33,127 nt of DNA, from assembly GCA_903915735.1 (NCBI GenBank), contig CAIWUA010000047.1, forward strand, positions 1-33,127, read 5' to 3'. Made by a program: the position numbers and the translations under genes. Positions 11,306 to 31,169 of this stretch are shown here, piece after piece (position 1 is the first letter of the stretch; each line of letters begins with the position of its first letter). The stretch is from Candidatus Adlerbacteria bacterium (GTDB taxonomy: Bacteria; Patescibacteriota; Minisyncoccia; Phycocordibacterales; SBAW01). Below the pieces are notes generated by a model. The model was not told where the DNA came from. It did no database searches and was given only the letters and a program-made list of their open reading frames with translations.

Positions 11306-13617
<2,312 letters not shown>

Positions 13618-14931: not shown

Positions 14932-15888
14932 ATGGTCGAGGTCTTTGCGCTGGTTATCTATAGTGTGCAGTGGCTTGGCGTCGTACTCGGCGTCGGGGCC
15001 GAGGTCGTGCTCTTGGTGGCACATCTTATAGCGCTGCACCATCGCCAGCCGCAGTGGATAGAGAGCGTGCCCGCGGTGCGCGCGGCGCAGTTTATAGGCT
15101 TGTTGCTTATTGTCGCCTCGGGCGTGGCGGCGGTCGTGTATCAATTTTTAATAGGGGACACGGCGCCTTTGTTTATGGCCGTGTTTGGGTTTAAGTGGGC
15201 GCTTATTATCGCGCTTAGCGTGGCCTATATGCTCGAAAAGAATTTGCTTCGCGGCCACGCGGTGCTCGAGGGCTTTACCGGCGCCACCTGGCTCGCACTC
15301 TTTTTGGTGCATAGCGTTGCGCCCATATCGCCGTGGCTCGACCTTATACTTTTTTATACGGCGTGGATAATTGCCTTCGGCGTTGTGTGGGGCTCGTTTG
15401 TACTGTTGATGAAATATACGGGAAAAGGTTCGATCACAGCTCCGGCGGCGAAACTTCCTGATCAAAAGGTCCCTGGGTTTACTCGTCCTGCGGAAAAGCC
15501 GCAGGCGAGGCCAGACCATTTTGCTCAGAAAGTTTCGCCGCCTCCGCCCCCACCTGTTCCTAAACCTGTGCCCCCACCACCACCGCCTACTCCAATAGTC
15601 GTTTCTGCGCCGCCACCGCCTCCTCCTGCACCTAAACCTACACCTCCACCCGTGCCCTCCATAGCTTTAGCGAAGGAGGGACCGGCACCAGTGCTGGCAT
15701 CTAAGCCTATTAACTTGCCTGTTATAGAGCCGCTCGAGCTTGCCGCGCCGCGTGTTACCCAGGCTGCCAAACCTGCGGTTGCGCGCTACGCGCCCGACTA
15801 TGACCACATGCCTGGGCTTAGGGTGATGCCGCAGCGCGTCGAGGACCTGCATCTGCAAAATCGCGGCCCTGTGGTGCAGGCCGCATAA
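14932..15888 (+). CDS. Multi-TM membrane protein with long proline-rich C-terminal region
   Basis: Hydrophobic N-terminal half then [28 protein letters not shown] 6 nt before ATG. Confidence 0.8.
15444..15542 (+). repeat. 99-bp near-perfect long hairpin in frame inside 14932-15888
   Basis: Terminal 13-bp inverted repeats GGCGGCGAAACTT/AAGTTTCGCCGCC; arms alignable throughout (about 39 matched pairs) to CCTGCGG-AAAAG-CCGCAGG. Confidence 0.88.
15655..15680 (+). repeat. Element family B copy 2: 26-bp interrupted palindrome
   Basis: CCCTCC ATA GCT TT AGC GAA GGAGGG; encodes SIALAKEG. Confidence 0.8.
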
Positions 15889-19653: not shown

Positions 19654-21939
19654 ATGGCTTCAGAATACGACTACAAAAAAATAGAGAAAAAGTGGCAGGA
19701 CACATGGGCTGCTTCTAGCGCCTTTAAAGCCAGCGACGACTCGTCTAAACCTAAAACGTACGTGCTCGACATGTTCCCGTACCCGTCGGGCGAGGGGCTG
19801 CACGTGGGGCACCCCAAGGGCTATATAGCGACCGATATTTACAGCCGCCACATGCGCATGCGCGGCCACAACGTGCTGCACCCCATGGGCTGGGACGCCT
19901 TTGGCCTGCCGGCCGAAAACTTTGCGCTTAAGAACAAAATCCATCCCCGCGCCGCGGTCGAGCAAAACATCGCCAACTTTAAAGAGCAGCTGGCGCACAT
20001 AGGCTTTGACTACGACTGGTCGCGCGAAGTAAATACCACCGACCCTGCGTTTTACAAATGGACGCAGTGGATATTTTTGCAAATGTTTAAAAAGGGTTTG
20101 GCGTACCAAAGCAACGAGCCCATCAACTGGTGTCCGTCGTGCATGACTGGCCTTGCCAACGAAGATTTAGACGGCGATGTGTGCGAGCGCTGCGGCACCA
20201 AGGTCGAGAAAAAGAGTTTGCCGCAGTGGGTGCTCAAAATCACCAACTATGCCGACCGCATGCTCCAAGATTTGGACGCGCTGCAGTGGCCCGAGTATAT
20301 AAAGGAAGCCCAGCGCAACTGGATAGGAAAATCTGAGGGGGCAGAACTAGAATTTTCAATTTCCAATTCTCAATTTTCAATTAAGGTGTTTACGACGCGG
20401 CCGGATACGCTGTTTGGTGCGACGTACATGGTGTTGGCGCCCGAGCACCCACTTGTCGCTCAGTTACAAATAGAAAATCGCGCCGAAGTTGATTCGTACG
20501 TCGTCGCCTCAAAAGCCAAGACCGAGATAGAGCGCGGCGCGGCTAAAGACAAGACAGGTGTTGAGTTAAAGGGGATTAAGGCAATAAATCCGGCCAACAA
20601 AGAAGAGATTCCCGTCTTTGTCGCCGACTACGTGCTGTGGGGTTATGGCACCGGCGCGATTATGGCCGTTCCCGCGCACGACGAGCGCGACTTTGAGTTT
20701 GCCAAAAAGTTTAACTTGCCCGTGCGCGAGATAGAGCTCGAAGATTCTAAAAAGATTGTCGAAAAAGTTGGCGGTACCTGGACAGTTAACTACAAACTCA
20801 AAGACTGGGTGTTTAGCCGGCAGCGCTATTGGGGCGAGCCTATCCCTATTATTCATTGCCCCAAAGACGGCGCTGTAGCCGTGCCCGAGGATCAGTTGCC
20901 TGTACTTTTGCCCGAAGTCGCTTCGTACGAACCGTCAGGTACCGGCGAGTCGCCCTTGGCTACCATTACCGAGTGGGTCAATACCACGTGCCCGACCTGC
21001 GGCGGCCCCGCCAAACGCGAGACCAACACCATGCCGCAATGGGCCGGCAGCAGCTGGTATTACCTGCGCTTTATGGATCCGCACAATACCGAGGCTTTGG
21101 TTGATACAAAAAAAGAAAAGTATTGGGCACCCGTGGATGTATATGTCGGCGGCGACCATGCGGTGCGGCATCTTATTTATGCGCGGTTTTGGCACAAGTT
21201 TTTGTATGACATTGGCGCCGTGAGCACCATCGAGCCTTTTGCGCGGCTCGAGTTTTTGGGCTTTATTTTGGCCGAGGACGGCCGCAAGATGAGCAAACGC
21301 TACGGCAACGTCATCGACCCGACCGATGTTGTCGTGGAGCACGGAGCGGATGTCTTTAGACTCTATGAGATGTTTATGGGTCCGTTCGAAAACACAACCG
21401 CGTGGAACCCGGCCTCGATAAGCGGCGTCGGGCGCTTTGTCGAGCGCGTGTGGAGGGTGGGGACATCCGATGTCCTTAGGACATCGGATGTCCTAGCTTT
21501 GGACACCTTACTCGAGCAGACAGTCAAAAAAGTCGGCGATGACATCGAGTCGTTTAAGTTCAACACGGCAGTGAGCCAGATGATGATACTGCTTAATGCG
21601 ATCGAAAAAGAAAAGATGATAGGCAAGGGACAGTGGCAAAAGTTCCTGAGCATCCTGTTGCCTTTTGCGCCGCACATTGCGTCCGAGTTGGCACAAGTAG
21701 CCGGCATTGATATATCAGCGTGGCCGGCAGTCGACACCGGCAAGTTGGTGGCCGACACGGTGGTTATGGGTGTGCAGGTTAACGGCAAACTCAGGGGCTC
21801 GATAGAACTCGCCCCGACTGCCTCTGAAAAAGAGGCAGTCGCAGCCGCCAAAAACGACCCCAAAATCGCCAAATGGCTGACGGGGGAGCCGACCAAGGTC
21901 GTATATGTCGCCGGCAAGATTCTTAACCTGGTCGTATAG
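19654..21939 (+). CDS. leuS: Leucyl-tRNA synthetase
   Basis: MFPYPSGEGLHVGHPKGY (HIGH), DGRKMSKRYGNVIDP (KMSKS), VQVNGKLRGSIE. Confidence 0.98.
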   Translation: MASEYDYKKIEKKWQDTWAASSAFKASDDSSKPKTYVLDMFPYPSGEGLHVGHPKGYIATDIYSRHMRMRGHNVLHPMGWDAFGLPAENFALKNKIHPRAAVEQNIANFKEQLAHIGFDYDWSREVNTTDPAFYKWTQWIFLQMFKKGLAYQSNEPINWCPSCMTGLANEDLDGDVCERCGTKVEKKSLPQWVLKITNYADRMLQDLDALQWPEYIKEAQRNWIGKSEGAELEFSISNSQFSIKVFTTRPDTLFGATYMVLAPEHPLVAQLQIENRAEVDSYVVASKAKTEIERGAAKDKTGVELKGIKAINPANKEEIPVFVADYVLWGYGTGAIMAVPAHDERDFEFAKKFNLPVREIELEDSKKIVEKVGGTWTVNYKLKDWVFSRQRYWGEPIPIIHCPKDGAVAVPEDQLPVLLPEVASYEPSGTGESPLATITEWVNTTCPTCGGPAKRETNTMPQWAGSSWYYLRFMDPHNTEALVDTKKEKYWAPVDVYVGGDHAVRHLIYARFWHKFLYDIGAVSTIEPFARLEFLGFILAEDGRKMSKRYGNVIDPTDVVVEHGADVFRLYEMFMGPFENTTAWNPASISGVGRFVERVWRVGTSDVLRTSDVLALDTLLEQTVKKVGDDIESFKFNTAVSQMMILLNAIEKEKMIGKGQWQKFLSILLPFAPHIASELAQVAGIDISAWPAVDTGKLVADTVVMGVQVNGKLRGSIELAPTASEKEAVAAAKNDPKIAKWLTGEPTKVVYVAGKILNLVV
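20350..20384 (+). repeat. AT-rich patch (family C) inside leuS
   Basis: GAATTTTCAATTTCCAATTCTCAATTTTCAATTAA; encodes EFSISNSQFSIK; contains the reverse complement of the uvrC AAATTGAAAA core. Confidence 0.55.
21461..21475 (+). repeat. Element family A copy 3 in leuS
   Basis: GGACATC-C-GATGTCC; encodes GTSDVL. Confidence 0.88.
21477..21495 (+). repeat. Element family A copy 4 in leuS, in reverse-complement orientation to copy 3
   Basis: TAGGACATC-G-GATGTCCTA; encodes RTSDVL; TTA separates the two 15-bp cores. Confidence 0.88.
21815..21841 (+). repeat. 27-bp hairpin inside leuS
   Basis: CGACTGCCTCT-GAAAA-AGAGGCAGTCG, 11-bp perfect stem, 5-nt loop. Confidence 0.8.
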
Positions 21940-25833: not shown

Positions 25834-26884
25834 AGGCAAAAAAGTGTTTGCCGGCCTCTCCGGCGGGGTAGACTCGGCCGTGTCGGCGGCTTTGCTGCAG
25901 CAGCAGGGCTACGACGTGCACGGCGTGTTTATCCGCATCGCGCTGCCGGGCTACCCGTGCTCGGCCGGTGTCGACAAAATAGACGCCATGCGCGTGGCAG
26001 CGCATCTTAAGATTTCTTTTGTCGAGATAGACATGTCCGAGGAGTATGAAAGGGAGGTGTTTAAAACCAGCATGCGCGAGTTTGCAAAGGGTCGCACCCC
26101 TAACCCCGACGCGCTATGCAATCGCGAGATAAAGTTTGGCCTTTTTTATGAGTGGGCCATGAGTGAGGGCGCCGACTTTGTTGCGACCGGCCACTACGCC
26201 CAGGTTGATAGTCGGACATCCGATGTCCGACTATTGGCCGGGGCAGATGAGAACAAAGATCAAAGCTACTTTTTGTGGATGGTACCCGAAACAAAGCTGG
26301 CCAAGACACTCTTCCCCGTTGGGGGGATAAAAAAGCCCGAGGTCCGCGCGCTGGCTAAAAAGTTTAAGCTGCCCAACGCCGAGCGCAAAGACAGCCAAGG
26401 GTTGTGCTTTTTGGGCGAGGTCTCGATAGACGACATGTTGCATCGAGAGATCGAGCTGGTGCCGGGCGACGTACTCAACGAGGCGGGCGAGGTAGTGGGC
26501 GCCCATGAGGGCGCACAGGCCTACACGCTCGGGCAGCGGCACGGCTTTACTCTTTTTAGCCAAACGCCGGACTCGGTGCCGTACTATGTGATAGAGAAAG
26601 ATGTTGAGTTTAATACTATTACCGTGTCGCCCAACAAATTTCCTACCAATGCCGCCAAGACAGAGGTCTTGCTTACTGAAACTAATTGGATAGGTGAGAT
26701 AAAAAATGGTAATTATTTTGCACGCTATCGGTATCGGCAAGAACTAATACCGGCAATCAAAGAGACTGACAACAAAATTACTTTGCTCAAGCCGCATTAC
26801 GTGCCGCTTGGGCAGTCGCTGGTGCTTTATGAGGGGGAGAGATGCTTGGGCGGTGGTATTATTGACCGCGCTATAATAAAGTAA
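25781..26884 (+). CDS. mnmA: tRNA-specific 2-thiouridylase MnmA (start uncertain)
   Basis: VFAGLSGGVDSAVSAALLQQQGYDVHGVF, RTPNPDALCNREIKFG, ENKDQSYFLWMV, KDSQGLCFLGEV. Confidence 0.96.
   Translation: MPRMRASSPTSANILDTKGKKVFAGLSGGVDSAVSAALLQQQGYDVHGVFIRIALPGYPCSAGVDKIDAMRVAAHLKISFVEIDMSEEYEREVFKTSMREFAKGRTPNPDALCNREIKFGLFYEWAMSEGADFVATGHYAQVDSRTSDVRLLAGADENKDQSYFLWMVPETKLAKTLFPVGGIKKPEVRALAKKFKLPNAERKDSQGLCFLGEVSIDDMLHREIELVPGDVLNEAGEVVGAHEGAQAYTLGQRHGFTLFSQTPDSVPYYVIEKDVEFNTITVSPNKFPTNAAKTEVLLTETNWIGEIKNGNYFARYRYRQELIPAIKETDNKITLLKPHYVPLGQSLVLYEGERCLGGGIIDRAIIK
26208..26234 (+). repeat. Element family A copy 5: 27-bp perfect palindrome inside mnmA
   Basis: ATAGTCGGACATC-C-GATGTCCGACTAT, 13-bp arms; encodes DSRTSDVRL. 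Confidence 0.93.
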
Positions 26885-30504: not shown

Positions 30505-31169
30505 AACTCGAAGCTTCGTGGAAGGCGGCTTTGGCGGAGGAGTTTGGCAAAGAGTATTTTAAAAATCTTTCTGACTTTGTCCGTGGCGAATACACACACG
30601 GAGTAGTCTACCCGCCGCCCAAAAATATTTTTAGGGCTTTTGATTTGTGTCCGTTCGATAAAGTAAAAGTTGTGATACTCGGCCAAGATCCGTACCACGG
30701 CCCGGGCCAAGCCAACGGCCTCTGCTTTGCGGTGGGTGAGGGAGTTGCCCTGCCGCCGTCACTACAAAACATATACAAAGAACTCGCAGCAGAAACGGGC
30801 GCGCCCTTCGAAGCCTTGGCGAAGAAGGGGGACTTGGAACGCTGGGCTAAGCAGGGAGTGTTGCTTTTAAATGCAACGCTTACCGTGTCGGCCAAGAGCC
30901 CCGGCTCGCATCAAAAAAAGGGGTGGGAGGAGTTTACCGACGCGGCTATTAAAGCGCTGTCAGAGCAAAAAGAGCATCTGGTGTTTATTTTGTGGGGCAA
31001 CTATGCGCGGCAAAAAGGCGCACACATAGACCGCGCCAAACATTGTGTTATCGAGTCGCCGCATCCGTCGCCCTTTTCGGCCTACTCGGGCTTCTTCGGC
31101 TCAAAACCCTTTAGCAAAACCAACGCGTATTTAAAAAAGACGGGCCAAAAACCAATCGATTGGCTTTAG
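30486..31169 (+). CDS. ung: Uracil-DNA glycosylase
   Basis: VVILGQDPYHGPGQANGLCFAV, WAKQGVLLLNATLTV, LVFILWGNYAR, IESPHPSPFSAYSGFFGSKPFSKTN. Confidence 0.97.
   Translation: MGTGEIKLEASWKAALAEEFGKEYFKNLSDFVRGEYTHGVVYPPPKNIFRAFDLCPFDKVKVVILGQDPYHGPGQANGLCFAVGEGVALPPSLQNIYKELAAETGAPFEALAKKGDLERWAKQGVLLLNATLTVSAKSPGSHQKKGWEEFTDAAIKALSEQKEHLVFILWGNYARQKGAHIDRAKHCVIESPHPSPFSAYSGFFGSKPFSKTNAYLKKTGQKPIDWL
30804..30829 (+). repeat. Element family B copy 3: 26-bp interrupted palindrome inside ung
   Basis: CCCTTC GAA GCC TT GGC GAA GAAGGG; encodes FEALAKKG. Confidence 0.85.

Follow-up and report, generated by a model that had tools for sequence, protein, structure and literature searches.

Palindromic elements with a dispersed core and locus-specific arms inside genes of a small-genome bacterial genus, and a possible origin of the arms in host DNA

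Introduction

How does a near-perfect 99-bp hairpin come to lie in frame inside a bacterial membrane protein gene, and where do its two arms come from? The question arises in a 33,127-nt stretch of Candidatus Adlerbacteria DNA (the window), which belongs to a 682,096-base draft genome of 74 contigs; the other genomes of the genus measure 0.5–1.3 Mb and are mostly multi-contig drafts. An initial annotation had proposed a dispersed element resembling Rickettsia palindromic elements (RPEs) or a MITE, with sharp 13-bp termini. We asked whether the hairpin has relatives, which of its parts they share, and what the remaining parts resemble.

Results

The window hairpin and its host gene

The inverted repeat is present at 15444–15542, as the initial annotation noted, and folds as a single long hairpin of 40 pairs (MFE −59.8 kcal/mol). 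Weighing this energy against shuffles, which the annotation had proposed, gave −29.8 ± 3.9 for the shuffles (z = −7.65), and 0 of 200 equalled the native value. The hairpin is indeed in frame and free of stops within the ORF of a membrane protein whose tail is proline-rich, and a diverged palindrome (family B) does follow in the same linker, 112 bp further on (Table 1). The supposed sharp termini fared otherwise: the 13-bp ends vary from copy to copy, and because their sequences differ they are not the termini of the element.

Orthologues of the host gene occur in 32 of the 35 genus genomes, and their proline-rich linker is very variable in length. The protein family encoded at 14932–15888 has no Pfam match. 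An Rfam scan of the window at gathering cut-offs returned tRNAs only and left the hairpin unmatched; at four loci, a relaxed threshold of E up to 1 yielded one tRNA and, on another hairpin, one match below threshold. The consensus strand, which we call K, is the minus strand in the window copy, antisense to the host gene. Since the right outer arm continues into the following proline codons, it is possibly the native side, and the left outer arm possibly its inverted copy.

Table 1. Features of the hairpin and its host gene, in window coordinates
Feature	Position	Strand	Remarks
Host ORF, 318 aa	14932..15888	+	about four membrane helices, proline-rich linker, conserved C-terminal motif
CGGAG tag, element 3' end (K orientation)	15440..15444	-	read from sequence
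Whole hairpin copy, family A	15444..15542	-	covariance-model E 7.2e-21
Left outer arm GGCGGCGAAACTT	15444..15456	.	locus-specific
Left inner arm CCTGATCAAAA	15457..15467	.	partly conserved family-wide (AAAA adjoining core)
Core	15468..15517	-	minus strand: GGTCTGGCCTCG-apical hairpin-CGAGTAAACCCAGGGACC
Variable apical hairpin within core, CCTGCGG-AAAAG-CCGCAGG	15487..15505	.	
Right inner arm	15518..15529	.	
Right outer arm AAGTTTCGCCGCC	15530..15542	.	
CGGAG tag, element 5' end (K orientation)	15542..15546	-	read from sequence
Short separate palindrome, family B, CGNAG-stem-CGNAG type	15655..15680	+	

A dispersed family with a conserved core

Queried with the 99 bp, BLAST returned one further copy from the hairpin's own genome; in eight other genomes of the genus it hit mainly short stretches of the conserved centre. 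From 10 copies we built a covariance model, which located 8 copies in the genome of the window and gave matches in 29 of the 35 genus genomes; beyond the genus, 7 of the sampled genomes from other families in the order also matched. Our compilation holds 129 copies, so the family numbers at least 129. Because further copies lie in its own genome, in the genus and in the order, the window hairpin is one member of a dispersed mobile family, here named family A. A contig scan with the arm motif GGCGGCGAAACTTNCTGA instead returned 50 unrelated genomes, since the arms are not conserved.

Read along K, the consensus core consists of GGTCTGGCC, a variable apical hairpin and GGAGAtCCGAGGACC. It is adjoined by AAAA(T)/TTTT, then by about 10 weakly conserved nucleotides with a GA-rich internal loop, and finally by outer arms that pair well and have nearly no sequence in common, the whole element measuring ~70–120 bp. 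Covariation was detected at 18 of 30 base pairs. The arms show a weak consensus, being purine-rich with AAA ~15–17 nt from the core. Tags of the form CGNAG, in the same sense and 20–22 nt from the core, lie at both ends in 40 of the 129 copies, at one end only in 40 more and at neither end in 49; at least one GNAG-like tag at the expected distance is thus found in 80 of the 129.

An ordinary RPE or MITE, meaning a fixed element whose terminal inverted repeats are conserved, would share the size of family A, its in-frame positions in housekeeping genes and its empty sites. We nevertheless think this reading very improbable, and the 13-bp termini of the proposed MITE have to be given up: the outer arms are locus-specific, and conserved termini, looked for between copies, were not found. 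Nor do the end tags represent a target-site duplication, as their variable base agrees in 14 of 40 copies when 12.9 are expected. No cognate transposon of the MITE kind was seen in a search covering Y1 genes.

The tags bear on a different proposal, in which a Y1 (HUH) REP-associated tyrosine transposase moves a single-stranded hairpin by recognising CGNAG, and the arms vary through single-strand insertion or repair. Tags at one or both ends of most copies favour it, as does their resemblance to the GTAG tag of REPs; REPs tagged in this way are linked to such transposases and can lie within genes for replication and repair (PMC3733652). Y1 transposase genes occur in 26 of the 35 genus genomes, three of them in the window's own genome, and one Y1 scores 66.9 bits on the REP-associated transposase model NF047646, whose cut-off is 80. 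The presence of Y1 genes tracks that of the element (P = 0.027, Fisher's test, genomes counted regardless of kinship). However, no family A copy lies within ~1.5 kb of 30 Y1 genes (in loci of up to 3.3 kb), five element-bearing genomes gave no Y1 hit, the tags are missing from the 49 copies noted above, and REPs retain their stem sequence whereas family A stems vary. We therefore hold REP-type movement to be a tentative possibility, on the doubtful side.

Insertion into genes and empty sites

Judged by a codon-usage score, both flanks are clearly coding, and on one strand, in 71 copies. The reading frame is kept across 68 of these (P = 6e-29 against 1/3), and 67 of the 68 contain no stop. All six frames and both orientations are represented, with 43 copies antisense and 25 sense to the gene (P = 0.04). 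Host genes, identified by inspecting translations, include recG, recJ, argS, ileS, lepA, polA, dnaE, tsaD, mnmA, pgk and a parB-like gene; certain copies are intergenic. The genus has small genomes, and the host genes are ordinary ones, often essential; the inserts are probably translated, to judge from their frames.

Among the genus genomes examined, the window gene carries the element in the window's species only, and the site is empty in the sister species G002. The linker of recG is empty in several species and filled elsewhere, in either orientation and with differing arms; in G019, G023 and G034 it holds other palindrome families. The recJ linker is empty in 20 of 31 genomes, and all 11 filled sites carry a core-like insert. 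The same architecture with unrelated cores recurs at the same sites. In the closest pair of genomes, G016 and G019, we found empty sites at tgt, pnp and the lepB promoter, where the native arm is indistinguishable. The initial annotation had stated that a locally evolved hairpin would have neither a second copy in a related genome nor an empty site in orthologues; both exist. Its proposal of a dispersed, RPE-like in-frame element is upheld by further copies in the window's genome and genus, by both orientations and all six frames, and by these empty sites.

Chimeric amplification can generate inverted duplications, and most of the genomes are multi-contig drafts, so foldback reads introduced by amplification or assembly have to be considered. 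Such an artefact is extremely improbable, given the kept frames, the near-complete lack of stops and the recurrence of the same sites and cores across many independent genomes.

Outer arms are locus-specific and self-complementary

We compared the arms of 39 same-genome pairs (38 copies) whose core identity was at least 0.9. In these near-identical-core pairs the inner 10 nt were 76% identical, whereas outer-arm identity was 0.42 against a background of 0.34–0.36. Each copy's arms were complementary to one another (0.84), compared with 0.42 for left versus right arms taken from different copies. At positions 13–21 from the core, Watson–Crick pairing was 0.83–0.90 and sequence conservation at most 0.6 bits. 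The clearest example is the pair L160 and L072 in G022, in which the 57-nt cores are identical and the arms differ. Thus, because near-identical cores share arms barely above background while each copy is self-complementary, within the genus the outer arms are not carried along with the core.

One pair in another family behaves differently: in G039, copies L385 and L392, on different contigs and with different flanks, share the same 25-nt arms, and arms can therefore travel. Two copies, L161 in tsaD of G022 and L076 in a protease gene of G014, additionally have an arm directly repeated ~25–35 nt away; no other copy has extra arm sequence within 45 nt of the element. Perfect inverted repeats numbered 153 against 18 in a Markov control, an excess that is no proof because the sample is biased towards element loci.

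Could the arms instead be inherited with the core and diverge fast by compensatory change, the hairpin being selected as RNA or DNA? The covarying pairs agree with such a history, as do the weak arm consensus, the two G039 copies with common arms, and the recG copies of G000 and G014, which occupy the same site and differ by several compensated changes. For the outer arms it is disfavoured by the near-identical cores, whose arms are hardly more alike than those of unrelated copies although each remains complementary, and by the recJ arms described below, which match native conserved codons. We consider it unlikely.

A native arm and its inverted copy in recJ

RecJ has a conserved motif, TDHH-(5–9 residues)-LPPAFAVINPK, at which the native sequence can be recognised. 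In recJ of G025, QLPPA is encoded natively by the downstream arm, GCAACTTCCTCCGGCGC, which the upstream arm repeats in inverted form without a mismatch (17/17 nt). Inverted copies of native sequence were also found in recJ of G030 (14/14 nt), G027 (24 nt, one missing base) and G024 (13 nt, one missing base). These inserts have cores of three unrelated families, namely A in G030 and G027, D in G024, and G in G025, where core G occurs again in lepA with other arms. One native arm plus an inverted copy is therefore clear in four recJ cases. The argS copies of G022 and G027 suggest the same pattern with the upstream arm native. At most sites, including the window copy, the linker is too variable to tell the native arm.

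The filled and empty recJ sites also bear on whether cores insert into the loops of palindromes that already exist. Perfect hairpins with no recognised core do occur in linkers (lepA of G000, L312, and of G002, L340; recG of G006, L109), and for YPAL elements insertion at or next to sites of dyad symmetry has been reported (PMC2229807). Against this, no palindrome is present at any of the 20 empty recJ sites, and every one of the 11 filled sites has a core-like insert. In recG of G008 the arms of G000 flank no full core, but the core's edge is kept, so this site looks like a deletion. Prior palindromes are quite an improbable source of the arms.

Other palindromes in the window and genus

Several further palindromes were recorded. 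Family B occurs in the window at 814–839, 15655–15680 and 30804–30829 as CGAAG-CCTTGG-CGAAG flanked by CCTT/AAGG, with CGNAG tags as in family A. A palindrome GGACATC(C/G)GATGTCC (family C) has four window copies, at 1104–1140, 11943–11969, 21461–21499 and 26198–26244. Family D has a core with AGTCCTCGCGCCGTCGCGC and a second hairpin, has locus-specific arms and lies in frame in lepA, recG and recJ (L190:1090–1191, L331, L333, L334, recG of G023 and G034, recJ of G024 at L372); a family D palindrome, GGAPQHDGARIEQFSSKK, also lies in the proline-rich linker of the window gene's orthologue in G007 (L142). Family F (L071:2133–2233 and L166:1838–1940) has the core GTCTAGGCGGGGGCG... between AAAAGTC/GACTTTT inner arms and locus-specific outer arms. 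Family J has a core coding for LQGDIPRPSAES and differing arms in tgt of G034 (L399) and pnp of G019 (L402). In recJ of G005 (L202) and G020 (L071), 18-nt in-frame tandem repeats of the native LPP segment adjoin the element. Small palindromes such as CGGAGGACCGACCTCCG or CTTCAAGGTTCGACCTTGAAG lie near the Y1 genes of L246, L253, L259 and L267, and one of the CTTCAAGGTTCGACCTTGAAG type is also present in recG of G011.

Discussion

The reading we favour, and judge to be reasonably probable, is that a dispersed core acquires site-specific arms by fold-back copying of the host flank. The spreading unit would be the core of ~20–75 nt with ~10 inner nucleotides on each side. Once this unit lies beside host DNA, its ends may pair and so place a 3' end next to the flank; that end would then be extended by copying the adjacent host strand, by fold-back or template switch, at or soon after insertion. 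The product would be ~13–25 nt of native flank present as an inverted copy across the core, and each insertion would therefore be a long hairpin with arms specific to its site. Copies that keep the frame in protein linkers would be tolerated and translated. The core itself may be moved by template switching or by a REP-type Y1 transposase; REP-type movement is compatible with host-copied arms, and the dispute concerns what moves the core. Template switching is known to homogenise the arms of inverted repeats and can invert the spacer (PMC8604942), and spacer inversion could lie behind the two orientations seen at one recG site.

Four observations run counter to fold-back copying. The 25-nt arms of G039 are shared on different contigs; the arms have a weak consensus, purine-rich with AAA ~15–17 nt from the core; about a third of the copies have CGNAG at both ends at a fixed 20–22 nt, which free-running synthesis would not predict; and the clear cases are limited to the four recJ copies.

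Should the arms be copies of target sequence, insertion would create a long inverted repeat in a single step, and an element could be mobile without bringing terminal repeats of its own. Fold-back copying would also offer an origin that can be tested for the perfect palindromes found within genes, a question open since the Rickettsia elements, and would imply that bacteria with small genomes withstand repeated insertion of hairpins into single-copy replication, repair and translation genes. On the broader claim we are evenly divided: that these are a class of mobile DNA consisting of a hairpin core only, which builds its inverted repeats from the target by self-primed fold-back synthesis, exists as several unrelated core families in parallel and enters essential genes without breaking them. 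There is a real chance that the arm origin is new; the kind of element, coding palindromic elements, is already known.

Several known systems resemble parts of this picture. The GC clusters of yeast mitochondria are short, mobile and rich in GC, with a debated mode of amplification, and the available part of that account makes no mention of host-derived arms (PMC4478555). In quasipalindromes, fold-back copying likewise equalises the arms and may invert the spacer (PMC8604942), but known events act on short repeats already present, whereas family A seems to gain its repeat around a dispersed core. Coding palindromes in Nematomorpha mitochondria are also perfect inverted repeats in protein genes, for which template switching has been proposed (PMC6649704); there both arms encode conserved protein, whereas family A has a dispersed core between its arms and one native arm in the resolved cases.

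GTAG/CGTC-tagged REPs and REPINs with RAYT transposases share with the tagged copies of family A an unpaired GNAG-like tag at the hairpin base, the location of some REPs in replication and repair genes (PMC3733652) and, in this genus, the presence of Y1 genes. REPs measure 20–40 bp and have a family-specific stem and a tag at one end (PMC3733652), whereas family A elements of 70–120 bp have a locus-specific stem and, where doubly tagged, tags in the same sense at both ends. The RPEs and their Wolbachia counterparts are likewise hairpins, of ~105–146 bp, that lie open in frame in conserved proteins and also between genes (PMC2229807). No sequence relation to RPEs or known RNA families was found in the Rfam comparison. 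RPEs have defined terminal inverted repeats of 12 bp (PMC2229807), whereas family A conserves the core only. Family A thus behaves like an RPE but departs from it, and from MITEs, in the defining feature, the conserved ends.
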